A program made the translations under genes and the position numbers. Shown piece by piece: positions 16,845-56,479 of a stretch of DNA of 64,000 nt. The notes beneath the pieces are model-generated. The model saw nothing but the letters and a program-made list of their open reading frames with translations. It made no database searches and had not been told where the DNA came from. How positions within the stretch are numbered: the first letter of the stretch is position 1; each line of letters starts with the position of its first letter. The stretch is from Bryopsis sp. KO-2023 (Eukaryota; Chlorophyta; Ulvophyceae; Bryopsidales; Bryopsidaceae), in NCBI GenBank assembly GCA_030272585.1, contig BSYQ01000002.1, positions 6,758,001 through 6,822,000 on the forward strand, written 5' to 3'.

Positions 16845-17894
16845 TCAATTATTAGAGGAAGAGTGGGCCAAAAAGTCCCACACCAAGATTTTCCCATCTT
16901 CCCTCACAACAATCATCTTGTCCTCACTCAAGAAAAGATCTTTGAGGTCACGTCCGACGTAGAACTTCTCGTGGCAACGATCCTCCTCGACGATACCGCA
17001 AACCACCACTTCCATTGAACCCCTAGAAAAGTATGCAAATTTGCTTTCGTTGGACCCCATATAACAGAAGTACTCGCCAACGTTCATAACTCGCACACAT
17101 TCAAAGTTTTCTCGACCCCATATTCGGACGGTTCCATCCATGGAGCCACTGATGATCAGGCGATCATGGACTCCAACCCCTTTGACGCGGTAAGAGTTCC
17201 CCTTGAGCGTTGCCACACGTGCGGAGGAGGTCAAGCACCACATTTCGAGATCCCCATTGGCTAACCCGCATATCAACAAACCCACTTCCGCTGCGAAAGT
17301 CGCACACTTGATACTTTTTTCCCTCTCCTCCCCATCACCCTTGACATCATTCAAAACCTTGTCTCGAGTCCAATCCGCCTTGCTCCACAAATCAAGACCC
17401 CCCGCACCACCAACGGCCACGTGTTCTCCGACGTCCACGATCACATCAACCTTGAAACTAAGGATGAAAGATGAGAGTCTTTGCAAGGCAGGAACTTCCA
17501 ACACTACCACGGTTTGGTTTGCAATCTTGCAAAGAAGCATTCCATCCACGAAACACAAACAGGTGTGTGTTGGCCCCAAATATTTCTCGGTGGAGACCTC
17601 GCCTTTTTCAACGTTCACCAAGGTAATCCCCGACCATCCCGAGATCGCAAACATCTCGCCTCCCTTGACACAACCGACAATACTCCTTCGATTCTTGAGG
17701 AACTTAATACACTTGGGCACAACGGTGCCACATCGCCAGGCCCTCTCGAGACTAATTTTTCTGGCGAACTGCTCTTCTTTGGTCACAACGTTTCAAGCCT
17801 TGTCGACGCAAGAGCACCTGGCCAAAGTCCTTGGAGAGAAACCCTCAAAGATTTTACAAAGAAGTTCTCTTGGGAGTTCCCATACGATTTTCAT
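16845..17894 (-). pseudogene. F-box/WD40 protein, subfamily B, with in-frame TGA in the F-box
   Basis: From ATG at 17894 the frame reads MKIVWELPRELLCKIFEGFS and RTLARCSCV, the F-box of this family. It then meets TGA at 17795-17793 and continues in the same frame through KEEQFARK, LERAWRCGTVVP and seven WD-like blades (LDLWSKADW, LEMWCLTS, VRIWGREN, ILVWDFLAHS). The TGA sits exactly where paralogues at 40.3 and 49.9 kb have Trp of KAWNDATK, so one TGG-to-TGA change explains it. No other break is seen over about 350 codons. SCF substrate receptor by family. It is either a young pseudogene, a read-through allele, a sequencing error, or a gene whose product starts downstream without the F-box. 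Confidence 0.75.
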
Positions 17895-17899
17895 CACGC

Positions 17900-20605: not shown

Positions 20606-21588
20606 CAACAAAACACGCACACACCGAAAACAACAGCAGTTTTTTCCGAACATGCATGAAAATCCCCCCAAAACAAGTAAAAGTAAAAGCGAAAACGAAA
20701 ACAAAACCCCGCCGGCGGTTTCAGCACCGGCGGCTACGACCTCCCTGGCGCATCTGATCATCCCTGTCAATTCGAGAGTGAAGGTTCGAACCCGGGACCT
20801 GGCGGCCAGGGATCCTCTAGCAGATCCCCTTGACCAGCGGGCGAACGATGACACGCAGCGATGTCGCACTGAAGCCCCCCCCCCCAAACGATGATTCACC
20901 CACCCGCCAGAAGCTCGAGCGGAGCGTGCGTCGAGCGGCTCTCCGACGTCTTCGAAGACGTCTTCACAGCTAAACCAGCTGTCAATCCGAATCGCTGTCC
21001 TCGCGATGCTCACGCGTAGTGGTGACCAAAGCCACCAACGAGTCAGGTGGGTGAGAGGGTGGGGAGCTGTTGTGTGGGGGACAGGAAAACGCTTTCCTGT
21101 TCTGGAGAAGCTCGATCGAGCTCTCAAGGTTTGGGTATGCAATCAAACGCACCAACGGATGCCATGGTTTTGGCGCGGCGCGCCTGAGCTCTGGTGATTG
21201 CGGGAAGAATCTCATTCGTTTTCGTGGAACGAATCCAATGGTTTTCAATTGGGGAGGGGGGGATTCTCCATTCTGTCTTTCTTTTGGATTTTCATCCATG
21301 TCGGCTGATTTTGTTTGGTCGGGGGATATGCCCGTGGTTGGGGGATTTTGATGCATGCATGTTGGTGGTCGGCCTTGATTGGTGGCTTGTTGCAACCTGT
21401 GGCAAGTTAGGCTCTGGCTGGTCAGAGCGCCCAATCCCAATGGGGGTGTGGAATGCCCCTCGAAAGGGATGTCCGTCAGTCAGACTGTTGGGTGCAGCCA
21501 AAGCCATCTTTTCCAAGCTGGTTGGAAAAGTAGATGGGTGGGGATTGGGTGGTTTCTGGTTGGAGCTGCACCCACAGTCCGACTGATC
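20606..21588 (+). repeat. Inverted-repeat family, arm A (partner B at 23.36-24.05 kb)
   Basis: Nearly the whole segment recurs in reverse complement at 23358-24051; B lacks about 250 bp of A (roughly 21190-21440). The last 140 bp also match 24144-24302. A stretch on the minus strand at about 20770-20850 has an A-box-like GCCCGCTGGTCAAGG, a TGCTAGA loop, a CTGG-CCAG stem and a GGGTTCGAACC B-box. It resembles a decayed tRNA-Ser(GCT) and is conserved in B. GC content is clearly higher than in flanking DNA. The element class is unknown; a tRNA-derived or foldback element is possible. Confidence 0.75.
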
Positions 21589-23209: not shown

Positions 23210-23357
23210 GGTCAGTGGGAGGGAGGGAGTTTCAAAGGAAAAAAAAGCTCTTTTCCTTTTTTAGAAGAGGAAGCTCTGCTGAGAGAAAAAATGTCAAGAG
23301 GGAAGTTGAACGAAAAAAGAGGAAGGAAATACTTGGAGTAAGCAAATCAGTATATAT

Positions 23358-24051: not shown

Positions 24052-24143
24052 TCCTGGATGTTCATGGCTCTGTTAGAAGTTGCACTAACCCACTTGGTAT
24101 CCCAACAAAAGCGAAAAACCCCACAGCCAACCCATCCGCCCAT

Positions 24144-24650: not shown

Positions 24651-25757
24651 TCAAAAGTGCTTGGAAAAATCCCAATGCCAAATCTCTCCAAACCTAGTCA
24701 CAACTGTTAGCTTTTCGTCCTCCACCAAGACCTGATACACCATTTGTTGTACTTTCTGGAAACAAACAAAGCTCTGCACACACTCCTCCTTAGTTTTATC
24801 CCATATTTTCACAGTTCCATCGCAAGATCCGGAGAAAACACGACCTCCTTTGATACCAACTGATGTGATGGTTTTCGTGTGACCACGAAATGTGTGCACA
24901 TGTTTACCACTGTTCACTTCCCACAAGCGAATGTTTCCATCCCACGCTCCACAAAATATCAATCCATCAGAAACACTCATGGAACTCACTCCCCATTTTT
25001 GTCCACTAATGACTCTAAGGCACGCATTATCAAGTAAGTTCCATATTCGAATAGTCTCATCTTCCGAACCACTGATCAAGAGATTGCCTTCCTCCGGTAA
25101 GATCCGCCAAACCCTGTGTTTGTGACCTTGAAGGGAGGTAACGAGCTCCCATACCCCTTTTTTCCAAATTTCAAGCTCCCCATCCACCCCCCCAATAGCC
25201 ACGTTGTCGCCAAGGTCCGGAATCGACAAGATACTCTTGTTGCAGAAAATTGACACGTTGAAAAGCAGCCTCCATTCGTTTGAGATATCCCATCCGCACA
25301 AAGATCCATTGCAACCCCCACCAACAAGCATCCCATCTATGAAAGAAAGACTGTTTTGTGGGCCTACCTCCCCAATGTGGAAGTGAAACGTGGTACTACA
25401 ATCAAAAACGGTTTCTCCCGTGTTGAAATTTATCACCTTGAGCTTGTGGTCGTCGGTCAAGGCAATAAGGTTTTCCATCACAGCACATGTCAGCAATGGT
25501 AAAATTCGAAGAGGTTCCCGATGGATAACGGGCTGTGGTGGATCATGCAACCATGCACGCTCCAAGCCAATTTTTCTTTTCAGGTCAAACTCTGTATCCA
25601 TAACTTCACGCCAAGACTTGGCCACACAAGAGCATCTAGCCAGCGTTTTCGCCGAAACCATTTGGAAAATGTCGATAAGGATATCTTTGGGCAAGTCCCA
25701 TTCGATGGTGAAAGAGTCGCTGGTGTTGGAACGATGATCTCCCTTCCAGCCAAGCAT
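24651..25757 (-). CDS. F-box/WD40 protein, subfamily A (368 residues)
   Basis: F-box near residues 18-60 (IEWDLPKDILIDIFQ, TLARCSCVAKSWREV), then the family linker LERAWLHDPPQPV, then a seven-blade WD40 propeller: LCGWDIS, LEIWKKG, IRIWNLLD, IRLWEVNSG, VKIWDKTKE, IWHWDFS. Expected to act as a substrate receptor of an SCF ubiquitin ligase, with the F-box contacting Skp1 and the propeller reading the target. The frame is uninterrupted and ends in TAG. Paralogues start at MSD; here that ATG is replaced (codons read NTSDS), so the ATG at 25757, 13 codons upstream of that site, is the most likely start. Further in-frame ATGs exist upstream at 25787 and 25862. Confidence 0.85.
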   Translation of the reverse strand: MLGWKGDHRSNTSDSFTIEWDLPKDILIDIFQMVSAKTLARCSCVAKSWREVMDTEFDLKRKIGLERAWLHDPPQPVIHREPLRILPLLTCAVMENLIALTDDHKLKVINFNTGETVFDCSTTFHFHIGEVGPQNSLSFIDGMLVGGGCNGSLCGWDISNEWRLLFNVSIFCNKSILSIPDLGDNVAIGGVDGELEIWKKGVWELVTSLQGHKHRVWRILPEEGNLLISGSEDETIRIWNLLDNACLRVISGQKWGVSSMSVSDGLIFCGAWDGNIRLWEVNSGKHVHTFRGHTKTITSVGIKGGRVFSGSCDGTVKIWDKTKEECVQSFVCFQKVQQMVYQVLVEDEKLTVVTRFGEIWHWDFSKHF

Positions 25758-29921: not shown

Positions 29922-30992
29922 TCAAACAACACAATGCTCACAACCCTTTAATATTGTTTGTTTGTTTGTTGAAAACAACCCTTTGGAAAAATCCCACTCC
30001 CAAATATCCCCGTTATGAACGGCCACCAACTTTTCATCATCAACCCACAACACATGCATCACGTTTTTCGTGAGGAAAGTTCGCATACACTCGCCCTTCG
30101 TTGTATCCCATATTTTTATCGTTCCATCAAAAGATCCTGTGAACATCCGACCTCCTTCAACAACAACGGAGGTCACAATTGTTTCATGACCTTGAAAGGT
30201 TTGCACGTGCTGGCCGCTTTCCAATTCCCACGAGCGAATGTTACCGTCCCAAGCTCCACAAAAAATGAGTCCATCATTAACAACCATTGACCTCACTCCC
30301 TTTTTCTGTCCACGAATAACTCTGACGCAGGCACCATCAACTAAGTTCCAGACTCGAATAGTCTCATCCCTGGACCCACTGATCAAGAGATGGCCTCCTT
30401 GGGGCAAAATGCAACGAACACCATCTTCATGACCTTGAAGGGATCTGGTAGGCTTCCACACCCCTTTTCTCCAAATTTCAAGAGCCCCACTATAGCCCCC
30501 AATCGCAACGTTGTCGCCAAGGTCCGCTATAGACCAGATGCTCGAATCGAAATTTTTAACGTGGAAAAGCTTCTCCCATGTGGATATATCCCATCCACAC
30601 AGATCACCTAAGCCACCCCCAGTCAGAAGCATCCCATCCATCAAACAAAGACTAGACACTGCGATCTCCTCACAATCAAAAACAAAGTCTTCCCTATCGA
30701 CATCAAACACCTTGAACCCTTTGCGACCACCCAAGGCAATGAGATCCTTTATCTTGGCAGAGCTTGATGTGAAAAAATCAGTTTGACCTATGTGAATGAT
30801 GGGCTCTATCGGTTTATGCAACCATGCACGCTCCAAGCCGATTTTTCTTTTTAAGGACGATTCCTCTTTTGTAACGTCTCGCCAAAATGTGGCCACACAG
30901 GAGCATATAGCAAGCGATAGAGCAGGAATTTTTCGAAGAATATCGACCAGGATATCCCTGGGCAAGTCCCATTCCATTGGAATATCGCTCAT
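29922..30992 (-). CDS. F-box/WD40 protein, subfamily A (356 residues)
   Basis: ATG at 30992 begins MSDIPMEWDLPRDILVDIL, so the F-box occupies about residues 7-50 (SLAICSCVATFWRDVTKE). The linker LERAWLHKPIEPIIH follows, and then seven propeller blades with closing motifs FKVFDVD, LCGWDIS, LEIWRKG, IRVWNLVD, IRSWELESG, IKIWDTTKG and IWEWDFSKG. GSxDxTIxxW patterns are well kept. Predicted SCF ubiquitin-ligase adaptor in cytosol or nucleus. Single uninterrupted exon. It is divergent to the 34643 gene across a 3.6-kb repeat-rich spacer. Confidence 0.9.
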   Translation of the reverse strand: MSDIPMEWDLPRDILVDILRKIPALSLAICSCVATFWRDVTKEESSLKRKIGLERAWLHKPIEPIIHIGQTDFFTSSSAKIKDLIALGGRKGFKVFDVDREDFVFDCEEIAVSSLCLMDGMLLTGGGLGDLCGWDISTWEKLFHVKNFDSSIWSIADLGDNVAIGGYSGALEIWRKGVWKPTRSLQGHEDGVRCILPQGGHLLISGSRDETIRVWNLVDGACVRVIRGQKKGVRSMVVNDGLIFCGAWDGNIRSWELESGQHVQTFQGHETIVTSVVVEGGRMFTGSFDGTIKIWDTTKGECMRTFLTKNVMHVLWVDDEKLVAVHNGDIWEWDFSKGLFSTNKQTILKGCEHCVV

Positions 30993-32871
30993 GGTGGCGT
31001 CTCGCTCTTGAAAAAGAGATCTTCTTCCTTCCTCCTGGATTCACAATATCACGTGGTCAAACGAGCGAGACTTTTATCGCCTTGCCCATCGCGCAACTCT
31101 CTCAAGGCGAAAAAAGAAGTGTTGAGACTCCCAGCACCAGAAAAAGCAAAAAGAGGCCATCGCCCACCCGCCGCACCTCTTATCAAAAACACCACGACCA
31201 AAACGCACAGAGACTAGGTGATACTAAAAGCAAGAAAAGGAGTTCTTGTTGAAAATTCCCAAGACCAACCCCCGGCGTCGCAGAGCCACTCAGAAGGCGT
31301 TCTCTCATTGTCAGCTGCTTTTTCCCTGGCCAAAGTCTAGAAAGAAAGAAGAAACCCTCGTCGCTCGCGCTCACTTTCAAAAGGAAGGACCGACGCAGGG
31401 AGGCTCTTGCGTTCCTGCGGCGTATTCGAGATACGGCTTTGCTTTTCGAACGCACAGGGGTGGCGAGGTCGCCACGAAGATTTCACCCAGTGAGTTTTTC
31501 GACTATGGAATTGCAAGCAGTCGCTCCAGCTGCCAATAAAGATCGTCGGAAACTGTGGAGAGCGTTTTTCGAGGTCGCATCCGTCCCTATCAGTCGCAAT
31601 CAGTGAGGGAGAGTTTTTTATCGTTTCTATCCTTTCTGTCGCTTTGATGGACCAAGCCAGACGTGTTGCACACGACGAAAACTTTGCAGCAGAAACGCCA
31701 GTGATTGAACCAAAAATTGCATGGAATTTCTAATGGTTTGGACTGAGGGCCAAGGAATTACATCGATTCATATTTTAATTTTATCCCAAGAATCAACTCA
31801 GGGGGGCCTGGCCAGGTGATGTTCACTGCAGTTGGCTCTATTGCACACACTCATGTCACATTTTTTTTTGTTTCTCACTCTGTGATGCCAACGAACATTT
31901 TTTCCTCCCACTTTCCAAAAATCCGCTAATAGAATTCTTTTGTACAACCTATCAACTCTCCAACTTTCCAAAAAAATCTTTCAACCAATTTTTGATACCT
32001 GATTCTTGTCTCTGTAGAAGAAAATTTTTTCCATATTTCTTTTTTTCAGGTCTATATTTTGGACCAAAATAATCCCCTCTTTGATGTCTCACTTTTTTTT
32101 CCCTCTGCGACTGACCCATTACTCTCTCACTTTTTTTATCTCCCTCAAACTTTGCCACTGATTCAAAATACAAAATCATTCAAAATCTCAAAGGGGGGTG
32201 ACAGAAACGATACAATCAAGTTTGCTGCTGTTGGCCCCAATTTTAATCCAGTGCTGAGGTCTATTTTCAATTTTTTTGTGGAGGGGGAAGCAGCCATTGA
32301 CATTTTACCCCTATAACATGCCCAGTAGGAGTAGTTTTTTCAACTTCATTTTTCTCCAGCTTCATTTGGCCTCGCAGGTGCATGGTGGTCCATCCTTTTT
32401 TTAATATTCTTGGGTTTTCTGGAGTCCAGCAATTCAACCACCGCCGCTTCCTTTGTTCTTTTTCTCTTTTTATTTCCAGGGAGAGGGGGGGGGAGAGGTT
32501 GTCAGCATCATAGCATCAGGCTTCTAGATGTCAGCCTACATGGGAAAGAAAAAAAGAGGTTACACTGTGGGGGAATTCAAAAAAAAAGAAAATCACTGTT
32601 CATGTGTGTGTTTCAATTAATTAAAACTGGAAAAAGACAAATGTGCAACTGACTGCATTAGCCACAAAACATTACAGGAACTCTGGTGCATTTGGCTTCT
32701 TTTGTTTTGAAATGTTCCTTTCAGTCATCCCTTTTTTTTTGTTTCAGGGTCAAACCGAAACGTGCACAATGAGATCCCTTGCAGGGAAAAGTAATCCAGA
32801 AAACTGGATTTCAAGTGAAAAAAAGACCCTCCCACAAGAAATCTCTCCACGTTCTTTCCCAAAATATAAAC

Positions 32872-32904
<33 letters not shown>

Positions 32905-34642
32905 CTGGAAATGTTTTTTCCATAACCTTGTTTTGAATAAAGGCATCGACCATTATCTAGAAACCAGTCCGATGTGACGACGACCCCTGTCCACAGCCCA
33001 ATGCAGAACCATGAGCAATTTTGATTGAAAAAGAGTGTGTTAAAAAAATTCTAATGCAGGACCAGCTGTTGATATTTTGTGGGTCAGTGACCCACCAAAA
33101 AAAAGAGTCATTGGCAATACTTATCCCCCATTTTTTTGTGTCCCTATTCTCCCCCAACTCAAAGGAATTCCTCCCTTTAGAGGGCTGGATTATCCACTGC
33201 CACTGTTTTTCCTTCTTCTCTCTTCTTTTCTTTCTGTCTCTTGTTTTCTTTTCAAATCTTCAGCAGATGGGTGGGTGAAAACTAACCTGATCTATAAAGC
33301 CCTCCGGTTATTCCTGCAGTCCTTTTGATACGGGCCTCCTGTTGCTGCTCGTTAAATTGGAGAGTCCAGTTGATTTCTGCTTTTCGTTTGCCGCAATCCA
33401 CCCCCTTGTCAATAATCAGAAAACCACCTCCAAGTTTTTGCCACCTGAGTTTTTAGCATTCTAAAAACGAAATTCAAATCCATCACCAACAAATCGACAT
33501 TGGTTGGAAATACACATGCACATTCAATGATTCAGACAAGAGATGAGGAGAAAACTGAAATGTTCAATTTCAAAATTGATTTTCCACAATGCTTGGTTTC
33601 TTGGGAAGTAGGATTTACGATGGGACGATTGGTCAGGTCAATCCAGGCCACACCAACTTTTTTTCCATTTCAGAGAGGTCTTTCTCTCTGGTTTCTTCAT
33701 AAAAGAAAGCAAAATACCGCTCCCCGGGTGTATCATATTTTTGACCGGCTGGCAAGCTTCACCACAAGCGCCTTGAGGGGGCGCTGCTCTGTCAGACTGG
33801 GTCTGCAGCGGAACGTAGAAGATTAAAAAAAAAAAAAAAAAGATAAAAAAAAAGATAAAGATAAAGGTTCGTGGGCACTAGAGCCAGAACCCCTTAACGC
33901 GCGCGTGAAAAAAAAAACCGACACCAAGCCGCTGGACCTATGTTTTTTCTCGACGCCAATCAGCCCACTCGAAAGAAAATCTCAAGAAGGGGGGTCTATT
34001 GAAAGGAAAGAAAATTTGCATAGTCACTCTTCCACTCACTGAATAAAAAATTGACCTCGACCCTCTGTCGACTTGTCGAATCATCAGCGTCGATCAATCC
34101 GACAACACCGCCGCCGCAGTTGAACAGAGCTGTTATCTCAACCCCAAAACAGCTTTCACGGACAATCAAATACCTCCCTCTACCGGAAACGTTTTTGATA
34201 TCAGATTACTTCACGCAGGTGGGTTTGCTCGGCGTTACCTCTTAGGCGTAGGTTTTTCGCCTACGCTGTTCTCAGTTACAGCGGAGCGGACGGTTCGACA
34301 AGTGCAGAGTGGGTTACTAGGACTGCAAGTTTGGTCTTAGTGGTCTTATTAAGAACGTTCGACCAACGTTTTTCTTCTTTTTTCCCGCCCGGCTTTAGCC
34401 GTCCTCCTTCTGAATTTTCGGCAACATGGGGGAGGGGGGTGAACATGGCATTGTTTCGGCTTTGTTGGTGCTCTCGGCTTTGCTGGTGCTGGGTGTCCCC
34501 ACAGCTCGTTTTTTTGTTGAAAAGACGTTCGCTCTCGTCAGGGCGATAAAGTTCTGGCTTTGGAAAGCCTCGTTTTTTAGGGAGCATAAAAAGTATTGGT
34601 TGATCGACTGATTATCTGTTCGAATTGAAGGGGGCTGCAACC
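30993..34642. repeat. Spacer of divergent F-box pair, homologous to 50.94-54.85 kb
   Basis: Holds, in order, the upstream region of the minus-strand gene (GCGGCGTA, GTCGCATCCGTCCCTAT and TTTGATGGACCAAGCCA blocks shared with 51.3-51.67 kb), R2 plus extension (31.71-33.34 kb), antisense R1 (33.48-33.70 kb), an A/GATA-rich tract (33825-33866) and a leader with CAATCCGACAACACCGCC and TACTTCACGCAGGTGGGTT. The same order occurs at 50.94-54.85 kb, and the last part also precedes the 40348 gene. GCAG|GTGGGTT looks like a conserved 5-prime leader splice donor. No gene is seen here. Confidence 0.75.
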
Positions 34643-35689
34643 ATGAGCGACTTTATTCGGGTCGAATGGTACTTGCCTAGGGAGATCCTGATCGATATTA
34701 TGCAGAGAATTCCTGCTCGATCGCTTGCTAGATGCTCTTGTGTGGCCAAATGTTGGCGAGAAGTTACAAAGGAGCAGTCAGACTTGAAAAGAAAAATCGA
34801 CTTGGAGCGTGCGTGGTTGGATGAACCAATCGAGCCCACTATTCACAATGAACAGAGTTTTTTTTTCGTGGAGTGTTGTGCCAAGATCAAGGATCTCATT
34901 GCCTTAGGTGGTGATGACGGATTCAAGGTGTTCACTTTCGATCGAAAAGAATTTGTTTTTGAATGTACGGAGATTCGCCATGTGCATTGTCTTTCTTTCA
35001 TGGATGGGATCCTTGTAATCGGCCATACCAATGGTGACTTGTGTGGATGGGATATATCCACATGGAAAAAGCTTTTTTGCGTCTCAATTCTCGATTCGTA
35101 TATCTTATCGATTGCAGACCTTGGTGACAGCGTGGCTATTGGGGGCGAAGATGGGGATCTTCAAATTTGGAAAAAAGGGGTGTGGGAGTTGGGGAGATCC
35201 CTTCAAGGTCACGAAGATGATGTTACATGTCTCTTGCCCCAACCAGGCGATCTCTTGATCAGTGGGTCACGGGATAAGACTGTTCGAATATGGAACTTAG
35301 TTGACAATACTTGCCTTAAAGTGTTGTGTAGCCTCACAGCGATGTCCCTTTGTGTTTCTGATGGACTCTTGTTTTGTGGATCGTATAATGGTATAATTCA
35401 CTTGTGGGAGTTTGAAAGCGGCAAATACGTGCAAGCTTTTCGAGGTCACAAAAGACATGTGACCTCCTTGTTTGTTAAAGGGGGTCGAATGCTCTCAGCA
35501 TCTTGTGATGGAACGACAAAAATATGGGATACAACAAAGGAGGAGTGTGTGCGGAGTTTTGATTGTTTGCAATATCTGGAAAAAGACGTCTTTCAAAAGT
35601 TGAATCTGATATGGGTTGATGATGGAAAGCTGGTGGTCGTTGGCAGTCCTGCGGAGATTTTGGAGTGGGATTTTTCGAAGGGGTTGTAA
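34643..35689 (+). CDS. F-box/WD40 protein, subfamily A (348 residues)
   Basis: ATG at 34643 (MSDFIRVEWYLPREILIDIM) matches the start of paralogues. F-box to about residue 50 (SLARCSCVAKCWREVTKE), linker LERAWLDEPIEPTIH, then a WD40 propeller with LCGWDIS, LQIWKKG, VRIWNLVD, IHLWEFESG, TKIWDTTKE and ILEWDFSKG. Uninterrupted, ends TAA. Predicted substrate receptor of an SCF ubiquitin ligase. The conserved leader upstream contains a possible donor GCAG|GTGGGTT near 34218, so a spliced 5-prime leader is likely. Confidence 0.9.
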   Translation: MSDFIRVEWYLPREILIDIMQRIPARSLARCSCVAKCWREVTKEQSDLKRKIDLERAWLDEPIEPTIHNEQSFFFVECCAKIKDLIALGGDDGFKVFTFDRKEFVFECTEIRHVHCLSFMDGILVIGHTNGDLCGWDISTWKKLFCVSILDSYILSIADLGDSVAIGGEDGDLQIWKKGVWELGRSLQGHEDDVTCLLPQPGDLLISGSRDKTVRIWNLVDNTCLKVLCSLTAMSLCVSDGLLFCGSYNGIIHLWEFESGKYVQAFRGHKRHVTSLFVKGGRMLSASCDGTTKIWDTTKEECVRSFDCLQYLEKDVFQKLNLIWVDDGKLVVVGSPAEILEWDFSKGL

Positions 35690-36730
35690 GCAATACCTAC
35701 TAGGCATCTTGTTGTTTTATACTGTTTCGTTATTTTACCCGTTCAATGATTGGAGGTGCAATTTTAAAGAGGACCGCTCTTACGAATTTGTCTTACCTTT
35801 TTTCAATAATCAATTTTCTCATCTTTGCTTGTTTTTCTTTTTTATAATCTCAAATCTCTATGAATTAAGAGAACACAAGTAGTTCAATTTCCCCATTCCT
35901 TAACACCTTTCTGAAAAATTGTGGTAAGGTGTTATACCCTCTTTCCCGCGCGAAGAGAAAGAATGGAGTTAACAGAAAAAACGCACACACTGTCATTGCC
36001 CTGTGAGTTTGGGCAGCACGTATCGGAAACCAGTTCCCTGTTGACGACACAAAACCCGTCTCGAATTTAACGGGCGTTCCACTCCTCTTCTGAGGTCAAT
36101 CAACTTAGTTGGCGGCGCTCAAAACATCACATTCACTCAGGAAGTTCACGTAGCCAGCAAAATCGGCGAAAGGATAAAAAAAAACTCGCAGGGGAATTGT
36201 GTCCCAAAACCTTTTGAAGGCAAACTTGACTTCAAATTTCTTCTTTAAAGATAGGAAGGCAGTGATTTAGAATAGGAATCAGGGATCTCCGCGACTGGGA
36301 AAAACCAGTCCCCAAAAGAGCCCCCAAAAAGCGAACTCGCATCAAGACCTGTACTTTTGAGGTGGAGCCCTTGGGGATTTTCACAGCACACCAGGAGCGA
36401 AAAGATAGAGACAGGAGCTCAATTCAGATCATTTCCTTGCTAGTGGTGACACAGTTTGGGGGGGAGTGAGTCACGAGGTCTTTGTATCGTCGACTCTGAT
36501 CAGAAGTCCTGGCCTGAAAAATATTCCAAACCCACCAATCGTACTCCCATTATAACATGGGTAGGAGAAGAAAAGAGTGATCTTATAGAACCCACAAGCC
36601 TAAATTTCAATTTCAGTGTGGGAAGGAAAGAGAGTGACCTTCCAAAAAACCCCAACCCCGATCTCAATCTCCCAGTCCTTGCAAAAAGAGGGAAAAAGAA
36701 TGACCAATCGGAACGATTGATACAGTCACT
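35690..36730. other. Spacer, no gene seen
   Basis: 3-prime flank of the F-box gene, followed by AT-rich sequence without motifs. The right part contains GAGTGA(T/C)CTT-like elements near 36572, 36635 and 36748 that lead into the composite module. Confidence 0.4.
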
Positions 36731-38199: not shown

Positions 38200-40347
38200 T
38201 TTTTTTCTGTAGCCCTGTTTTCTAATGAGGATAAAATATTTTAGCATGTTCGTTGTAATCTTAGGCTTTCCTGTTCATTTCAGGACTCGTCTAATCTCGT
38301 GTAAAAATTAAAACACCCATTCTGAAAAATATATGACCCTAGCTCAGGTCATTTCATTACATTGTTATTATTCTGACAATAACTGTTAGAACTCAGTGGA
38401 AGACCACTCACCATTTGTTCTCCTTTTTCCTATCCCACTTTGTTTTTTGAAAGATAGTGTTGCTGCTAAGAAAGTGGCAGGAAAAAATTGTTGGAAACAA
38501 AACAAAACAAAAACTGTAGAAAGAAAAAACGACATCCTTGATGCTCGAAAAAACACGGCCCTATGCTCAACCAAACTGAACATACCCTGATAAGGAAAAG
38601 CGAAAAAACATCTTTTTTTTCCCTAGTTAATGTTAAGTTAAACAGCTTCATGATAATGGGGCCAGACAACTACAAGTCCTTTTTCTAGAAATCAAATTTG
38701 CTGCTGCTGATCTGCCCCAACTTTTTATCCACTGCTAAGGCCTACCCAATACTATAGTGGTGGTGTTGAATATAAGAGTGCGAAAAAAAAACCCCAGGAT
38801 ACTCTGAAGGGTGTTAACCTTTTTTTGCAAGGACAAAAAACAAACATTAAATTGGCAGCCATACAATCGTGAACTTAAATCGCCCCTCAGTCGTGTTTTA
38901 TATAGGTGCTTTTCAAGAAAGAAATACAATCCACATCATTACCTAGAGTTGTTGTGTTAAGCTCAAGTGGATATTCCTGGGAATCTAGGAGAGGAGCCCC
39001 AACGATTCGATCGACCAGCCTGACTTTGGGGTCGATAGAATCAAATTCCATTCTCTAAGTTGAAAGGCATCAACAGCAGGAACTCATGCTTTTATTTTCT
39101 TTTTTTATTCATTGTGGAGGCAAGCCAGGGGTGACTGATCTCTTGCAAGGCTTTAAAAAAACGTGTTTTTTCGATCCTTTTCTATGCCCTAGTTTCATTT
39201 GGGCTGGAAATTATGGTGGGACAATCCAGGCCACACCAATGGGTTGTGTTTTTCATTTTTTCGATTTCACAGAAGATATTCAACAGTCAGTTTGCAAGGG
39301 GGTATCTTGCTTGAATCAAGAAAAAGGGAAAAGTTGAACTAGATAATTGGACAAGGAACTATTTCATTCAGGTGCTAAGTGAGATTCTGCCATCAGTGCC
39401 ATTTAAGCAATTACCTGATGCATACACATCAATCCATTGCACCCCTTCATCTCCAAAACAAAAAGGGGGGTGGTCAGGGAGGTCCCCACCAGCATTTTCA
39501 CCACCTATGGAAATGCTTCCATGAAGGTCAGGCTCGACAATTATTCTTCTTTTCAGGACTAAATCTTTCAGAAATCGTGGTCCAGGCCTGTAATTTTTCT
39601 GGACAGCGGGACGTCAGCGTCCCCTCAAACAGGTTAAGGAAAAAAAAAGGAATAAGGCGATACCGGTCGCTCTGCCAGTCCTCCGTCTCGACGCCTTTCG
39701 CATCTTTCAGAAAGAAAATTCGAAAACACTGGGGATCGCCTGCAAAAAATGGTCGTCACTCTTCCACTCTCACCTGGCTGCAGAAAAATTTGACCTCGAC
39801 CCCCTGTCTACTCGCCAGCTCATTGACGCAGATCAATCCGACGCCGCGACCATAGTTGAAAAGAGGTGTGATCGCAGTCAACGAACAGCTTTTTCGGACG
39901 ATCGAGTCCCTCCCTTTGCTGGAAACGTTTTTGATATTAAATTACTTCACGCAGGTGGGTTCGTTCAACGTTACCTCTTCGGCGAGGGTTTATCGCACTC
40001 GCTCGTGTTCTCTTGGATATCAATCTGTTGCTCTTATTTTTTTGTGGCTTGTCTCTGCTCTACCAGTCCCTTGTCGACAGACTTCCCTTTGTTTTTCGAT
40101 CGAAGTGTTGATCAGGAAGCACTCTCGAACAATACGTCCATCCAGGATCACTCTTTTCTCTTTATCGTTTACTCAAGAAGGATCCTCTTTTCAAGGGTGT
40201 TTCCTTTTTCTTAAGATTTTTTTTTTTTCCCAAGGGGTCTGCGTGAGAATCGGTCACGGTGAAGTGGTGCTTTGGTTCTGGTGTATAGGGAGGTCTCTAG
40301 GGGTTGATCGTCACAGCTGTTGCCGTTGTGCTGTCGAGCTTTGCAGA
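38200..40347. repeat. R3, antisense R1 and F-box leader
   Basis: R3 relative at 38.20-38.76 kb, antisense R1 at about 39.18-39.54 kb, then the leader shared with the 34.6 and 54.9 kb loci (AATCCGACGCCGCGACC, CAGCTTTTTCGGACGATCGAG, TACTTCACGCAGGTGGGTT). It is the upstream region of the 40348 gene. An open frame runs from 39856 into the F-box gene, but paralogues support the start at 40348. Confidence 0.65.
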
Positions 40348-41439
40348 ATGAGTGACTGCGTGCCTGTTGAGTGGGAGCTGCCGAGTGGCGTTCTTGGTCG
40401 AATCTTCGAAGGGTTCTGTGCAAGGACCTTGGTCAGTTGCTCCTTGGTTTCTAAGGCTTGGAACGATGCCACCAAGGATGATCGTTTCGCGAGAAAACTT
40501 GGGGTGGAGAGAGCCTGGCGATGCGGCACTGTTGTGCCGAAACGTATCCCGTTCCAGAAAAGTCAGTGGCCTGCAAGCCTGCTTTCTGTTCAGCGGAGTT
40601 GTGTTAAGCGGGGCCATATGATTGCGATTTCGATGGGGACGGAGATTAGATTGCTTGATGCTGGAAAAGGCCAGGTCTCCGCCGCGGTTTCTCCAATGAC
40701 TTTCACCTGTTTGTGTTTGATCGATGGCATCCTCCTTGGCAAGAGCGGGTGTGGGGACCGACGCGTGGTAGTCCTAGAAATACCCGATTTGCAAAGCACG
40801 ACCTCTTTCGTGCTCAGTTTCAGAGTGAATGTGATTGTGGACGTCGGAGAAGAGCTCGTGGCCATAGGTGGTAAATGTGGGGGTCTCGAGCTGTGGAGAA
40901 AGGCGGATTGGACTCGTGCCAAGGTCTTGAATGAAGTTGTTGACCAGGGTCACGATCTCAAGTGTGCGGCTTTCGATACGGAAAGGGGTCTGGTGATATG
41001 TGGATTGAGCAGTGGAGATCTCGATGTGTGGAGCTTGGCCTCTTTTGCTTGCGTGAGGACGCTCAAGGGGTCTTCCTACCCCGCCCGCCACGTGGATGTT
41101 AATGACCGTTTCATCATCAGAGGGACTAGGACTACCATTCAGATATGGGCTCAAGAAACCTTCGAGTGTGTGCGAGTTATCTACGTTGACCCCTTCTCTT
41201 TCATGGGGTCAAACGAAAGCAAAGTCGCATTCCATGGGCGATACTTGGGTGGCGTGATGGTTCGTGATGTTGCCGAGGAGGATCGTTCCGTCCACAGGTT
41301 CAATGTACAATCCAAATGGTCTCACACCTTAGGTATTTTTCTGACCGAGGACAAGCTAACTGTTGTGACGCTCAGGAAAATCTTCGTGTGGGACTTTTTA
41401 GCCCATTTTCGTTCCAAGAGTACGAAGTCTGAGTCTTAG
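40348..41439 (+). CDS. F-box/WD40 protein, subfamily B (363 residues)
   Basis: ATG at 40348 begins MSDCVPVEWELPSGVLGRIF. F-box to about residue 50 (TLVSCSLVSKAWNDATKD), linker LGVERAWRCGTVVPKRI, then a divergent seven-blade propeller: IRLLDAGKG, VVVLEIPD, LELWRKADW, LDVWSLASF, IQIWAQETF, VMVRDVAEE and IFVWDFLAH. Uninterrupted, ends TAG. Predicted SCF-type ubiquitin-ligase adaptor. Subfamily B differs from A by CGTVVP in place of LHEP after ERAW and by the FLAH tail. It is in the same subfamily as 16.8 and 49.9 kb but on the opposite strand. Confidence 0.88.
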   Translation: MSDCVPVEWELPSGVLGRIFEGFCARTLVSCSLVSKAWNDATKDDRFARKLGVERAWRCGTVVPKRIPFQKSQWPASLLSVQRSCVKRGHMIAISMGTEIRLLDAGKGQVSAAVSPMTFTCLCLIDGILLGKSGCGDRRVVVLEIPDLQSTTSFVLSFRVNVIVDVGEELVAIGGKCGGLELWRKADWTRAKVLNEVVDQGHDLKCAAFDTERGLVICGLSSGDLDVWSLASFACVRTLKGSSYPARHVDVNDRFIIRGTRTTIQIWAQETFECVRVIYVDPFSFMGSNESKVAFHGRYLGGVMVRDVAEEDRSVHRFNVQSKWSHTLGIFLTEDKLTVVTLRKIFVWDFLAHFRSKSTKSES

Positions 41440-49855: not shown

Positions 49856-50941
49856 TCATTCTTTAATGCAAGAATGGCCCAAAAAGTCCCACACCAAGAT
49901 TCTCCCGTCACGCCTCACAACAATGAGCTTGTCCTCCGTCAAGAAGAGATCCGAGAGGTCACCTCCTACATGAAATGTGAGGAGGCAACGATCCTCTCCG
50001 GCAATGCCTCTAACCACCACTTCCTTCGAGCCTCTCGAAAAGTATGCAAACTTGGTTTTGTTCAACGCCAAAACACAGAAAACACAGAACCACTTGCCAA
50101 CGTTCATACCTAGCACGCACTCCAAGGTGTCTTGACTCCACATCCGGATGTTACCATCCAAAGAGCCACTAATGATCATACTGTCATTGGCATCAACGCA
50201 TATGACAAGTTTGGGATGCTCCTTCAGCGTTGTCACATGTGCGAAGGTCGCTAAGCTCCACACTTCAAGATGCCCGTCATCCAATCCACATGTTAAGAAA
50301 CCGGAATCCTCAGCGAAAGCGGCACACCTGATTGTTTTCCTCCTGGCATGAGGAAAGCCGTTATTTAAGACCCTTGCTTGATTCCAATCGATCTTGCGCC
50401 ACAACTCTAAACGACCAAATTCACCACCAATGACCACGTGATCTCTAGCATCCACGATCGCATTAACCTTGAAACCGACGTCCAGAGAGGCGATCTTCTT
50501 GAATTCGGGTATTTCTAAGACCACCACGGTTTGGTTGCTATGTTCGTACACCAACATTATCCAACAACCACTGGCATTGATCAAGCCCAAACAGGGATTG
50601 CACATATCGGGGCCGTATATAGTGAAGACCTCGCCGTCCTCAGTGTTTACTAAAATTATCTTTTCATCTTCCCACGTTGCAAGCATCTCGCCCTGCCCAA
50701 CACATTTTTCGATCGGAGTCCTCCGGTCTTTGGGGAGCTCGATACACCTCGGCATAACGGTGCCACATCGCCAGGCTCTCTCTAGGCAGACTTTTCTGTC
50801 GAAACGATCTTCCTTGGTGGCATCGTTCCAAGCCGTAGCAACACAGGAGCACCTGGCCAGTGTCCTTGGGGAAAACCCTTCGAAAATTTTACCAAGAAGT
50901 CCACTCGGCAGCTCCCACTCAACCCTCACGTAATCGCTCAT
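49856..50941 (-). CDS. F-box/WD40 protein, subfamily B (361 residues)
   Basis: ATG at 50941 begins MSDYVRVEWELPSGLLGKIF. F-box to about residue 50 (TLARCSCVATAWNDATKE), linker VCLERAWRCGTVMPRCI, then blades IILVNTED, VVVLEIPEF, LELWRKIDW, LEVWSLATF, IRMWSQDTL, VVVRGIAGE and ILVWDFLGH. Uninterrupted, ends TGA. The open frame extends upstream of the ATG without support from paralogues. Predicted SCF substrate receptor. It is divergent to the 54856 locus, in the same arrangement as 29922/34643. Confidence 0.9.
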   Translation of the reverse strand: MSDYVRVEWELPSGLLGKIFEGFSPRTLARCSCVATAWNDATKEDRFDRKVCLERAWRCGTVMPRCIELPKDRRTPIEKCVGQGEMLATWEDEKIILVNTEDGEVFTIYGPDMCNPCLGLINASGCWIMLVYEHSNQTVVVLEIPEFKKIASLDVGFKVNAIVDARDHVVIGGEFGRLELWRKIDWNQARVLNNGFPHARRKTIRCAAFAEDSGFLTCGLDDGHLEVWSLATFAHVTTLKEHPKLVICVDANDSMIISGSLDGNIRMWSQDTLECVLGMNVGKWFCVFCVLALNKTKFAYFSRGSKEVVVRGIAGEDRCLLTFHVGGDLSDLFLTEDKLIVVRRDGRILVWDFLGHSCIKE

Positions 50942-53900
50942 TTCTGCAAAGCCACCACTGAGAAAACACCAGCAGCCAGGCCGTCCCTCTGTTCCCACGT
51001 GACGTGCACGACCAGTTCCGATCGAGCTTCGGGTTTTTTGGCGGAAAAATAGGTCGGACACACCTGCCGCGAACGGTAGCACCAAAAACACAGTGTCGAA
51101 CAACGTTCCTGGGAAAGAAAAAGAAGCGGGCGACGAAGAAAGTGAAGCGACCGCCTGACTGATGCCCCTTGAAACTACCTCTTTGTTGAAAAGGGAGGGC
51201 CACAGGTTGAAATATCGAAACCGCGACACCCGTTCACTTCAACATAAGCGCGTAAGATATACAAGCCGCTCCACTCAAAAAAAGCAGTCTCTCGTTTTCA
51301 GTTACCCTGACCCTGAGGAAAGTAAAAAAAGATCCTCGTAGTCACTCGCGCTTACTTTGAAGAGAAAGGACTTGGTGACTGCGGCGTACTTCAGATGCTT
51401 TTCGACAGCGACGGATTGGCGTCTCTGCAGTTGAGGTGGCGAAATCTCCACGGGTTTTCACCCCAAACGTTCTTTCCGACTGTTTGATTGGAGGATGGAA
51501 TCCTCAGCTGTCGATAAAAATCGTTGGGCGACTGTGAATTTCACAGCTGGAAGCATTCAGATCTTTAATCGTGGTCGCGTCCGTCCCTATCTGTCGCAGT
51601 AACTACAAAAATATTTTTTATCGGATACGTATCTATTCTTTCTGTCGTTTTGATGGACCAAGCCATCTCTCTTTTTTGGCAAGAAAATAGACCCCAGCGA
51701 GCTTTGCAGAAGAAACGCCATCTCCCTCAACGACGTTGTTATTCAATCAAAATTGCATGGAATTATTTAATGGTTTCGACTAAGGGCCAAGGAATTGTCT
51801 TGATTTATATTTTGATATGATCCCTGAGTTGTGGGATGATGTTCACTGCATTCAGCTCTGTTGCACACACTCATGTCAGCCTTAATTTCTTTCCCACTTC
51901 ATATAGAGGATGGATATATCCTGCCAACGAACAGTTTTTTTTCCCACTTTCCAAAAGTCCGCAATTAGATTTTTATTGTACAACCTATCATTTCTCCAAC
52001 TTTTCACAAAAAAGTTTCAACCAATTTTGTTGCCTGTTTTATCTCTACAGAAGAAATTTTTTCCACATTTCTTATTCACAAGTCTTTTTTTTTGACCACA
52101 ATAACTCCCTGGCTAATGTCTCATCTCTTTTTGCCTTCTGTGACTGACCCATTAGTCTCTCACTCTTTTCCCCTCCCCAAAACTTTTCCACTGACTCGAA
52201 ATATGAATCATTCATCATCTCAAAGGGGAGCGACAGAAACAATACAATCAAGTTTGCTGTTGCTAGCCTCAACTCTTGATTCACTGCTGAGGTCCCTTTT
52301 CAACATATTTTTCTAAGAAGGGGAAAGCACCCATCGGAATTTGAATCCTATGCCAATAAGGAAGAATTTTTTTAGCTTCATTTTTTCCGGCTTCATTTGG
52401 GCTACCAGGTGCATGGTGGTCCATCCTTTTTTCAAATTTTTTGGGGTTTTCTAGAGTCCCGATTTCTTTTTGTTTTTCTTAATTTTCCTTTCCAGGGAGA
52501 GGAGAGGTTGGCAAAATCAGTCTTCTGGATGTCAGAAGCTACATCCAGAAAAAAAAAGAAAGAAAAGGAAAAAAATAAAGAAAAAAAAGAAAGAGAAGGG
52601 TTCCACATGTGGAGGAATTAAAAAAAAACGCATCACTGTCCATGTGTGTGTGTTTCAAGAAAAGTCAATTGACTGTATCAGACACAAAAAAATTCCAGTG
52701 ACTCGTATACATTTGGGCTCCTTTTTATTTTCAAAGATTCCTTTTAGTCATCTCTGTTTTATATCAGGGGTCACTGGAACACAAAGGAGTGAAAGTAGCT
52801 TGTAAGCATGAACTTAAAAAAGAAATGGATTTCGAGAAGGAAAAAAGTCTTGCCCACCAGGAATCCCTTTATCCTTTTTTTCTAAAAATATGAACGAAGC
52901 TTCTTTTCTACTAATTCTGAAGCTTCCTTTTTCCCTCACCTTGTTCTGGATCATAGCATCCAGAATGGTGAAAATCGATCCGATGTGACGGCCCCTGTCC
53001 ACAACCCAATGCAGAATCTTGAGCAATAGAGTTGAAAAATATAATCGAAGACTTTTCTATTGCAGGTGCAGATGTTGATAATTTGTGGGTCGCTGACCCA
53101 CAAAAAAAAAAGTCATGGGCAACATTTTTCTGCAACTGTTTTTCTCCTTATTTCCCCCCATCCAAAAGGAAGCCTTCCCTTTAGAGGGCTGACTTTTCTT
53201 TTCTTTTTCTTTTCTAAGCGAATGGGTGGGTGGAAACTAACCTGACCTATCAAGCCCTCTGGGAATTTCTGATTTCCATCGAGACGGGGCTCATGTTGTT
53301 GCTGTTTCACGCTAAGGACAGCCCGCAGCATCAGAGAGTCGAGCTGTTTTCTTCTTTCTTTTCCTTTCTTTGCAATCCGAAAAAAAACATCAAGAACTGA
53401 AAGAACATGTCCAGCTCCCCACTATCTGAGTTTTTATGATTTTCGAAACAAAATTCAAATCGATCTCAGGTTCAGCCTTTGGAAGTGAGAATTTCATAAG
53501 AGTGAGGTGTTCCATTGAAAAATCATTATTCCTTAACAGGAAGGCTGATTTCTTGGCAGGTAGAGTTTATGGTGGGACAACCCAAGCCACACCAATGAGT
53601 TTTTTTTCCATCACTTTTCGATTCCACAGAAGATTTTCAACATTCAGTTTCTAAGGGGGTATCTTGTCTTAATAAGGGAAAAGAAGAAATATGAAAGAGA
53701 AACTTAACAAGTGAATTCTTTCATTTAGGTGTAGAGTGGAATTCTGCCTTTCAGTGCCAATAAAGAAATTACCTGATGCATACACATCAATGCATTGCAC
53801 CCCTCAATCTCCAGAAAAGGGGGGGGGCAGCCATGGCCTCCACCCACATTTTCACCACACATGGAAACGCTTCCATGACCGACATTGTCAAGGTTAGATC

Positions 53901-54855
53901 CCAACACTCTTTTTTACGACAAATTTTCGTTCGATTATTGCACCCCAGGTCCAGCCTATCTCTACCCAGGTGGCAAGCCCCTCCACAAGCGGCTTGAGGG
54001 GGCGCAACTCTGTCATACTGGGTCCGTAGCGAACGATGGCACTCCAAATCCAGCAGCTTTGAATGGCGGCCTAACCTCCTCATAATGGAGCGGCAGAATA
54101 CAATACCGACGTTCTATCTGTAAAAATATTCGTGGGCGCTAGAGACAAAACCCCCCAACGCGCGCGTGAAAAAAAAAAAAACTCGACACCAGGCCGATGT
54201 ACCTTGGTTTTATCTCGACGCCATCCAGACCACCCAAAGTAAACTCCAAGAAAAGGGGTCGATCGGAAAAAGGTCGTCGCTCTTCCACTCACTGCAGAAA
54301 AATTTGACCTGACCCCCTGTCGACTTGTCGGGTCATCAACGTCAATCAATCCGACAACACCGCCACCATAGTTGAAAAGAGGTGTGATCACGGCCCACAA
54401 ACAGCTTTTTCGGACGATCGAGTCCCTCCGCCACGTTTTTGACTTTTGGACCAATAGCAGGTGGGTTCGCTCGGCGTCGATTCTTCGGCGTAGGTTTCGG
54501 CTACGCTTTTATCAGTTACAGTGGGGAGTAGGGTCTGACAAGTGTGAAGAGGGTTACTGGGGCTTCAAATTCTATCCATAGACAAGGGAGTGGTCGTGGG
54601 AACGTTCGACCGACGTTTTCCTTTTATATGTATATAAATAAGATTTTTTATCGCCGTCTTTCTTGTGAATTTTGACAACGCGGGGAAGGGGAGCCTTACT
54701 TTGCCTTTGCTGTTATTGGCCTTCGCCACAGGTCTTTTTTTTCTTGAAAAGAGTAATGTGCTTAGCAAGGCGGTGGGGTATCACTTCAGAGAGCACCGTG
54801 TTTTGAAGAGTAGAGCAACTGTTGACTGATTTGTTGATGGTCGAAGGGCGCTAGC
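50942..54855. repeat. Spacer of second divergent F-box pair
   Basis: Same order as 30.99-34.64 kb: minus-gene upstream region with GTCGCGTCCGTCCCTATC, R2 plus extension (51.74-53.34 kb), antisense R1 (53.42-53.90 kb), then the plus-gene leader with CAATCCGACAACACCGCC and GCAGGTGGGTT. R1 is better preserved here than at 33.5 kb. No gene is seen. Confidence 0.75.
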
Positions 54856-56479
54856 ATGAGCGACTCTATTCCAGTGGAATGGGACTTGCCCATAGATATC
54901 CTGGTCGATATTTTTCGAAGAATTCCTGGCCTATCGCTTGCGAAATGCTCTTTTGTGGCCAAATCTTGGCGACAAGCTATAAAAAATGAGTCATCGCTCA
55001 AAGGGAAAATCGATTTGGAGCGTGCTTGGTTGCATGAACCAATAGAGCCCATTATTCACAAAGGTGAAGATGGGTTTTCCACATGTTCTTGGGCCAAGAT
55101 GGAACGTCTGATTGCCTTGGGTGGTTTTAACGGGTTCAAAGTGTTCGATCTCAATCGAAGCGAATTTGTGTTTCATTGCGAGGATATTTTCTCGGGGTAC
55201 ACTCTCTCTTTCATGGATGGGATACTTGTGACCGGGGGTATCCGGGGAGACTTGTGTGGATGGGATATATCCACATGGACCAAGCTTTTTTGCGTGTCAA
55301 TTTCTGATTACTGTAATACGCAAATCTTTTCGCGCTACCTTATTTTCGCGCGCGGACCAAAGCACGAAAATAAGGCAGGCGAAAATAAAGCAGGCGCGAA
55401 AATAAAGCAGGCGGAAAAGAAAGCAGGCGCGCGTGTGGACTCGACGCAAAAGTACCCCTCGAGCACAAGAAAACCCAAAGTGTCGATTCAACGCACAAGC
55501 ACTGTTGATGTCGCGTCCATCGACTCGACGGTGGGGTCACATGCGTCGACCACAAGAACATGCTCGGTCTCTTTCCTTCTGTTCAGAGAGTTCATCGTTT
55601 CGGTGACTGTAGAACCGTTTTAGGCACAACTACGGAGGCACAACCCAGTCTAGGGGCGAATTCAAAACACAGCCACAGAATGTGTGGAAACACATTCCAC
55701 ACTCTGACTTTGAGAGTGTTCTTTTTGACGCCACGCAAATCTTTCACATTGCTTTTTTCTCGCACCTGCTTTATTTTCGCGCTACCTTGTTTTCGCGCGC
55801 GGACCAAAGCGCGAAAATAAGGCAGGCGAAAATAAAGACTAGCGATCCTAAAGCAATCTGAAAGATTTGCGTATTACAGTATCACATCTCTTCAATTGCG
55901 GACCTTGGCGATAATGTGGCCATCGGGGGTGCATATGGGGATCTTCAAATTTGGAGAAAAGGGGTGTGGGAATTGGATAGACCCCTTCGAGGACATGAGC
56001 ACAATGTTTTTTGCCTTCTTCCCCAACCAGGCAATCTCCTGATCAGTGGGTCGGGGGATGAGACTATTCGAATATGGAACTTAGTCGACAATGTCTGCCT
56101 TAGAGTGATTCGTGGACAAAAAGAGGGAGCGCTGTGCATGATCGTTTCAGATGGACTCATCTTTTGTGGAGCGTTTGACGGTAACATCCGCTCGTGGGAA
56201 TTTGAAAGCGGCCAGCACGTGCAAACCTTTCAAGGTCACACAAATAGTGTGACCTCCGTCTTTGTCAAGGAAGGTCGCATGTTCACAGGATCATATGATA
56301 GAACGATAAAAATGTGGGACACATCAATGGGCGAGTGTGTGAGGAGTTTTGATTGTTCGCATAATCAGGATCAAGACGTCGGGCGACAAGTGTATGTGTT
56401 ATTTGTTGATGATGAAAAGATGGTGGCTGTTCGAAATAGTGGGGAGGTTTGGGTGTGGTCTTTTTCTCAGGGGTTATAA
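54856..56479 (+). pseudogene. F-box/WD40 gene, subfamily A, split by a MITE
   Basis: ATG at 54856 (MSDSIPVEWDLPIDILVDIF) opens a normal subfamily A protein through LERAWLHEPIEPIIH and LCGWDIS to VSISD. A 569-bp element (55311-55879) follows, and then the propeller continues (SSIADLGDNVAIGG, LQIWRKG, IRIWNLVD, IRSWEFESG, IKMWDTSMG, VWVWSFSQG) to TAA at 56479. With one TA copy and the element removed, the frame rejoins exactly as in paralogues. Unspliced, translation enters the element and stops at 55621-55623, giving 255 residues: the F-box, about two blades and an alien tail. Outside the insertion the coding sequence is clean, so the hit is recent, or the product is still used through splicing. 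Confidence 0.88.
55311..55879. mobile_element. TA-flanked MITE inside an F-box gene
   Basis: The ends are CTGTAATACGCAAATCTTT and its exact reverse complement (19-bp TIR), flanked by TA at 55309-55310 and 55880-55881 (Tc1/mariner-type target). The interior has two direct copies of a block with CGCGCTACCTT, TTTTCGCGCGCGGACCAAAG and AAAATAAGGCAGGCG, plus GGCGAAAATAAAGCA repeats. No transposase. The TIR places GTAATA at the left end and TTACAG at the right end, resembling a splice donor and acceptor. Confidence 0.92.

Follow-up and report, generated by a model that had tools for sequence, protein, structure and literature searches.

An F-box/WD40 gene family of Bryopsis sp. KO-2023: upstream modules, coding sequences and a putative receptor repertoire

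Loci and upstream modules in the window

The window analysed here is a 64,000-nucleotide stretch of the genome of Bryopsis sp. KO-2023 (C2:6758001-6822000, where C2 is contig BSYQ01000002.1, 8.8 Mb long, in an assembly of 91.09 Mb and 28 contigs). Pfam matches and open reading frames (ORFs) confirmed the seven F-box/WD40 loci of the first-pass annotation (Table 1). An F-box or F-box-like match above the Pfam curated cut-off was obtained for six of the seven loci, as was a WD40 match; the β-propeller matches of the ORF at 39856 are weak (best 24.9 bits, below the Pfam cut-off). The intact, stop-bearing and transposon-split states described earlier were all found: five loci are open, one has a stop and one is split by a 569 bp element. 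Subfamilies A and B do not strictly alternate as had been proposed, since their order along the region is B A A A B B A. Both B proteins share 27% identity with A_right1.

Four of these loci form two head-to-head pairs, with the left-hand genes differing by type as previously noted (A in pair 1, B in pair 2). P1 and W1 denote pair 1 or its S+A unit (module S with the A gene downstream of it), P2 and W2 denote the same for pair 2, and S1 and S2 are the respective spacers. L-numbers refer to loci that were compared with the window.

The family has the scale of a chromosome and is concentrated on C2. A genome search with the A protein gave matches at at least 114 places, at least 98 of them on C2 and mostly between 4 and 8.7 Mb; at least 95 B matches were found genome-wide, at least 87 on C2. 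From 364 F-box candidates, 150 were scored, of which 116 lie on C2; these counts are lower bounds. C2 makes up 9.7% of the assembly, yet bears most of the A, B and F-box matches. The weakest matches belong to other subfamilies, and the counts per contig were tallied by hand. TTTAGGG repeats were read at contig ends, and an LHCII exon has a single difference from Bry-Lhcb1 (Bry for Bryopsis corticulans) in 127 residues, counted by eye, which fits an origin in Bryopsis or a very close relative. RWP-RK, checked for a link to a mating locus, gave five matches; the one on C2, at 1.96 Mb, is remote from the cluster.

Table 1. Features of the window, and related loci on C2 (the latter in contig coordinates).
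Feature	Position	Strand	Remarks
B-type F-box/WD40 pseudogene	16845..17894	-	In-frame stop inside F-box region; WD40-positive, 16845-17792
A-type F-box/WD40 gene	24651..25757	-	Open; start codon uncertain; F-box-positive ORF 24651-25901; WD40-positive
A_left1	29922..30992	-	Open; left gene of pair 1; F-box-positive ORF 29922-31040; WD40-positive
Module 1, A-type proximal upstream, pair 1	30993..31288	-
Module 2 of pair 1	31280..31696
Module S of pair 1 (A-gene upstream DNA)	31697..34642	+
Tract, W1 vs L072 (C2:4742500-4748000)	33277..35790	+	99.4% over 2500 sites; left flank 82%
A_right1	34643..35689	+	Open; structure modelled; F-box-positive ORF 34604-35689; WD40-positive
A-type upstream pieces (S-right) before a B gene	39211..40012	+	71-80%
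B-type F-box/WD40 gene	40348..41439	+	Open; WD40 part weak in Pfam; F-box-positive ORF 39856-41439
B gene (B50)	49856..50941	-	Open; left gene of pair 2; F-box-positive ORF 49856-51238; WD40-positive
Tract, B50 vs L065 (C2 7.11 Mb)	50740..51546	-	97.4% over 800 sites
Module 2 of pair 2	51239..51719
Module S of pair 2	51720..54855	+
Tract in S, W2 vs L070, 2 Mb away	52772-53571	+	97.9%; flanks 74-82%
Tract in S, W2 vs L069	52788-53794	+	98.0% over 1000 sites; beside it 81.7, 73.7%
A_right2	54856..56479	+	Split gene; right side of pair 2; F-box-positive ORF 54838-55623; WD40-positive, 55862-56479
MITE-like insertion in A_right2	~55311..55879		TA target duplication, inverted ends (read by eye)
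Module 2 beside A gene	Pair 1, 6.964 Mb
Module 2 beside B gene	Pair 2, 7.11 Mb
Module 2 beside other F-box gene	8.598, 6.900, 8.208, 7.845, 7.738 Mb
P3, clearest further pair: other F-box gene	8598234-8599271	-	Followed by module 2
P3: A gene	8603272	+

The spacers of the two pairs are homologous, as claimed, and their similarity is not one of short common repeats, because they align over long stretches (31286-33484 with 51271-53465 at 66% identity; 33719-35096 with 53940-55309 at 68%). Piecewise queries resolved the spacer into three parts: an A-type proximal sequence of about 250 bp (module 1), module 2 of 0.4 kb and module S of 3 kb. Module 1 (S1 1-248) was also located, by coordinates, a short way ahead of some 20 further A genes. 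Module 2 corresponds to S1 240-634, and S begins at S1 657 and S2 482.

Module 2 was found at 11 loci, where the nearest listed gene is A in two, B in two and another F-box gene in five, with none in the remaining two. Three of the five other F-box genes are 29-31% identical to B, and none is in the A list. The B gene at 39.8 kb is preceded by A-type upstream DNA at 39.2-40.3 kb. Because gene types are mixed on the modules in this way, gene type and upstream module type are uncoupled.

Spacer order had been suggested to be the stable part of the region. This holds for the join of module 2 to S, which occurs in P1, in P2, at 7.11 Mb and at 8.60 Mb (at the last across 41 bases of S, as far as the query reached), but there is no single stable block, as S also joins other left neighbours. 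Among them are two flank types that recur at other loci and a reverse-transcriptase frame (RVT_1), the latter in L072. In seven S+A units, the 1.5-2 kb to the left of S revealed no A- or B-like gene.

Further pairs were sought by coordinates in a gene list that held 92 of the 98 A and 54 of the 87 B matches on C2, together with some F-box-only matches. A divergent F-box gene lies within 5 kb on the far side of module 2 at six of the 11 loci, compared with 0.12 at random positions; with P1 and P2 left out, it does so at four of nine. At the other five loci the partner is 12-14 kb away (two), is in the wrong orientation (two) or is not listed (one). The right-hand gene of P3 (L011) has only 0.2 kb of S in its 1.5 kb upstream region; P3 and the other candidate pairs are based on coordinates. 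The head-to-head layout is thus recurrent but not universal, given the partners missing or misplaced at five of the 11 loci and the seven units with no A- or B-like gene found to the left of S.

Histories of spacers and coding sequences

The two pairs, described earlier as duplicated, share their layout but are not recent duplicates of each other. Both spacers have nearer relatives at other loci than each other. The distal spacers of P1 and P2 are 75% identical and the right-hand coding sequences 76%, so these spacers are no more alike than the genes to their right. Between groups, spacer conservation likewise does not exceed that of the coding sequences: for L066 and L071 the spacer is 76% and the coding sequence 82% identical. 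Within a group of six S+A units, distal spacers are 85-91% identical versus 75-79% for the coding sequences, with the spacers more alike in all 15 pairs. Spacer identity in this group stays at 86-89% between -2.9 and -1.5 kb, then falls off gradually and reaches 58% near -0.3 kb. The spacer of L071 is of the S1 type (86% identical to that of pair 1), yet the coding sequence of this locus is nearest to those of L066 and L067 (82 and 81%).

Trees of nine units were compared by the AU test in IQ-TREE. The gene tree was rejected for the spacers (p = 2e-15) and the spacer tree for the genes (p = 0.0026); most nodes of the coding-sequence tree are poorly supported. A single tandem history common to gene and spacer trees was therefore not recovered, since each tree is rejected by the other data set, and spacers and coding sequences are, by these alignments, of different histories.

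One explanation of the contrast is that the spacer is under purifying selection, whether as a regulatory region acting in both directions or as an RNA that lacks annotation, and that the coding sequences are just faster. The flat 86-89% identity of the distal spacer over 1.4 kb in six units with linked coding sequences at 75-79% would fit, as would the position of S ahead of many A genes: 19 of the 29 A loci outside the window carry one alignment to S that spans 300 bp or more. However, synonymous divergence, and not just amino-acid divergence, exceeds that of the spacer: for six units whose coding sequences are open, dS ranges over 0.36-0.63 against a spacer distance of 0.09-0.30, in 15 of 15 pairs. 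The 97-99% tracts described below are, moreover, limited to some pairs, and the same interval is far lower in others. The spacer as an RNA or protein gene was rejected, with no Rfam match in four loci or in the window spacers and no Pfam match in the three scanned spacer ORFs of at least 120 amino acids. We regard purifying selection on the spacer as an unlikely cause of the pattern.

The tracts of near-identity (Table 1) are specific to certain pairs of loci. The W2 tract interval is about 85% identical in W2-L066 and W2-L067 and 52-76% between pair 1 and pair 2. The B50-L065 tract spans the upstream region and the start of the F-box, with flanks of 88% and 85%; the first 69 residues of the two proteins are 98.6% identical and the rest 67%. 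The right side of pair 1 is also affected, in that a 2.5 kb stretch containing A_right1 matches a locus 2 Mb away at 99.4% identity. A permutation test that assumes even rates gave 0/1000 in 36 of 37 comparisons, mild contrasts included, and 8/1000 in the other; with 0/1000 nearly everywhere, this test alone does not discriminate. What discriminates is the contrast between pairs at the same place, and tracts of 96-99% that are confined to particular pairs suggest conversion across distances of up to 2 Mb. Inside the coding sequences, a GENECONV-like search gave a weak signal with all polymorphic sites (six of 325 pairs) and none with silent codons (0 of 325).

A sharp junction lies at 31280-31288, where the A-type proximal sequence of A_left1 stops and module 2 starts. 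From this meeting of A-type proximal sequence and module 2, the left-hand gene of pair 1 was most likely replaced by an A gene with its own proximal sequence. The polarity of the replacement rests on the five loci at which module 2 lies beside other F-box genes, so the A gene could have been first. The gene replacement or conversion after duplication proposed in the first-pass annotation is well supported by the junction, the tree conflict and the pair-specific high-identity tracts.

The spacer, or the whole S+A unit, might instead spread as a transposable element. S has a common left end beside unlike flanks; 15 of 20 spacer loci (L039-L058) are without an A- or B-like gene in their 1.5 kb flanks, and at least 14 of these spacer loci show S joined, at a single base, to a dispersed repeat block. 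Yet the identity of the S+A unit declines gradually toward the gene without a sharp end, an unsystematic look noticed no terminal repeat or target duplication, and no transposase match was obtained in the scanned window ORFs, which makes mobility of this kind improbable. The junction of S with the repeat block, 575 bp in length, was also considered as the insertion of a site-specific element into the A upstream regions and rejected: at L026, one such locus, the A gene downstream is preceded by an S of its own, and for that reason the loci with S and the 575 bp block look like a separate S-derived repeat.

Predicted structure and the variable face

A model of A_right1 was generated with AlphaFold2 using seven window sequences. 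It comprises F-box helices and a seven-bladed propeller (pLDDT 86.3). The best Foldseek match was Fbw7-Skp1, followed by β-TrCP/FBXW11 and a designed propeller; the top 20 hits have TM scores by query of 0.64-0.76. A search of viral folds returned WD40, BTB/WD and F-box proteins of giant viruses as well as phage proteins, at 8-16% identity. Five exon-level matches to Skp1 were found in the genome, on C8, C10 and C2.

Variability was calculated for 26 non-redundant genes from 35 open entries; the nine entries dropped were two double entries, four near-identical copies and three with odd ends. Mean entropy was 1.66 in top-face loops, 0.77 in bottom loops, 0.76 in strands and 0.68 in the F-box and N-terminus, and a difference between top and bottom loops as extreme as this occurred in 0 of 20,000 permutations. 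Top loops hold 21 of the 30 most variable sites, and position 2 of strand a holds five more. The two neighbours of the first residue in strand a have a mean of 2.55 versus 0.88 elsewhere in the propeller (0 of 5000 permutations). The mean at W-7 is 2.20 (0 of 5000), that at W-6 is raised at 1.62 (133 of 5000) and that at W-5 is not raised (0.93). As mapped on the model, variability is concentrated on the substrate-binding face of the propeller. Site counting gave no significant positive selection after correction (ω of 0.52; best site p = 0.012 uncorrected).

Such variability could reflect relaxed constraint in a decaying, functionless family, and two broken loci out of seven in the window and the ω value would agree with this. 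We consider decay very unlikely, because the variability lies on the binding face while the bottom loops, strands and F-box are conserved, and because 35 of 40 examined A entries are open (best matches; two loci were entered twice).

A proposed receptor repertoire

The reading that we favour, with a probability of roughly two in three, is a fast-evolving repertoire of SCF-type ubiquitin-ligase receptors diversified by cassette exchange and gene conversion. The proteins, with an F-box and a seven-bladed WD40 propeller, would be putative SCF-type receptors; each member would bind a different, presumptive target and pass it to Skp1/Cul1 for ubiquitination. Given the hypervariable substrate-binding face, the family most likely acts as a repertoire. 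The genes would be placed behind reusable upstream modules, and repeated rounds of non-allelic recombination, by gene conversion and by replacement of cassettes, would homogenize these modules among copies that can lie megabases from each other. A coding sequence with its proximal 250-300 bp could thereby be moved behind an unlike upstream module, and replacement of the left-hand gene is the simplest explanation of pair 1. The analysis itself shows the domain make-up, the modelled structure, the hypervariable face, the sharp junction, the mosaic of identities and the conflict of trees; we infer the direction and order of events, and recombination, not another copying process, as the source of the junctions. 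Plain tandem duplication of one ancestral pair with later loss and divergence, without exchange, would explain the likeness of P1 and P2 in layout and in the juxtaposition of module 2 and S but is hardly credible, as it is contradicted by the AU tests and the gene/spacer tree conflict, by unlike gene types on one module and by near-identical tracts common to loci 2 Mb away.

The SCF receptors Fbw7, β-TrCP and Cdc4 are among the closest solved folds and likewise have F-box helices followed by a WD40 propeller. Receptors of this type are encoded by few genes and have a conserved substrate face; the Bryopsis family, by contrast, is large, and its members are single open frames in which this face is hypervariable. 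The trypanosome VSG cassettes with their 70 bp upstream repeats are similar in that a conserved upstream sequence is retained and the coding part behind it is exchanged. In contrast to VSG, the Bryopsis family is not known to have an expression site, to switch or to contain a repeat array.

In the HNWD non-self receptors of Podospora (het-d, het-e and het-r), four selected positions are reported, of which the d-a loop and the b-c turn have two each (PMC1805685). This is also a WD40 family with variability at the top face, and by our own mapping three of the four HNWD positions are hypervariable in Bryopsis; W-6, conserved in HNWD, is raised in Bryopsis. HNWD proteins have NACHT where the Bryopsis proteins have an F-box, and repeats are exchanged within and between HNWD genes. 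Positive selection is reported for HNWD, unlike the result of site counting for Bryopsis given above. No NACHT domain is among the Pfam matches listed for nine window ORFs, which are short. The plant and nematode F-box families (FBA/FBK and nematode F-box) resemble the present one in their lineage-specific, partly tandem expansion but have another C-terminal domain, and swapping of upstream modules is not described for them in the part of the source available (PMC3719486). The FBA domain (S-locus SLF/FBA family) is not among the window Pfam matches listed, which contain WD40 instead.

The family may tentatively be read as serving non-self recognition in a coenocytic alga: a repertoire of hypervariable SCF receptors, encoded for the most part in one chromosomal domain, with the common upstream modules as homology arms for swapping whole cassettes. 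We hold this to be possible but doubtful; non-self proteins may be the most attractive class of target. If true, the repertoire would combine a ubiquitin-ligase version of the fungal HNWD system with an exchange architecture like that of VSG, and would possibly guard the cytoplasm as it mixes with the outside when the giant cell is wounded.

A literature search of one library, with relevance judged by title, found no published account of the Bryopsis F-box/WD40 family, and to our knowledge few such lineage-specific recognition repertoires have been described in green algae. A large F-box family that varies most at its target-binding face and has decoupled upstream and coding trees would offer a new place to study the origin of repertoires. 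How a siphonous alga might tell its own cytoplasm from non-self cytoplasm, microbes or viruses is a question that the Bryopsis family makes testable.

The S-derived repeat and its 575-bp block

The repeat derived from S, the ~3-kb upstream module of A-type F-box/WD40 genes, was compared at 14 loci. At these loci S stops at one common base (position 3069 in the numbering of the pair 1 spacer, S1), a few bases ahead of a 575-bp block. The block is ~95–99% alike between loci and the adjoining S part is 72–95% alike in most pairs; the S parts of the spacer loci L047 and L048 lie above this range (98%). Further copies of the block were found on contigs C3, C6, C7, C8, C10 and C16. The left ends of the copies vary, whereas the right ends fall mostly at 558–575, a pattern that resembles a retroelement 3' end.

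Other features

The remaining features are listed in the table. The two SRP RNA genes are ~77% alike and inverted relative to each other. The F5/8 type C domain is predicted to have a lectin-like fold. Two partial Skp1 matches (C2:761725–761781 and 808592–808657) share contig C2 with the F-box cluster. The B gene located at 7.11 Mb on C2 contains a copy of the palindromic element (94.7% alike). Segments 10279–10717 and 22774–23207 are 90% alike; this similarity and the large inverted repeat may represent either fold-back or nested elements.

Features in the window and the 575-bp block (window positions unless a locus is named)
Feature	Position	Strand	Remarks
SRP RNA gene	11026–11315	-	
ORF with F5/8 type C (galactose-binding) domain	11470–12021	-	
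Large inverted repeat	20605–24311		arms 85% alike
tRNA-Arg	27990–28065		close to SRP RNA gene 28474–28773
SRP RNA gene	28474–28773	+	
70-bp array	37679–38129		unit similar by eye to 68-bp satellite unit
Palindromic element	59406–60103		
Long satellite array	60599–64000		68-bp unit; break near 61.4–61.6 kb
575-bp block	L042:3866–4440		further copies C2-wide

Near-identical copies on C2

The A gene of L072, an S+A unit (C2:4742500–4748000), encodes a protein 98% identical to that of the right-hand A gene of pair 1, and its open frame stops at codon 42. It may be a recent pseudogene or, alternatively, a recent donor. L047 and L048, far apart on C2, are 98.3% identical over 3.85 kb. The pairs L017/L018, L032/L033 and L035/L037 were also judged, from very short tree branches, to be near-identical distant copies on this contig. 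The near-identical locus pairs would be segmental duplications inside the chromosomal domain of C2 that carries the F-box family.
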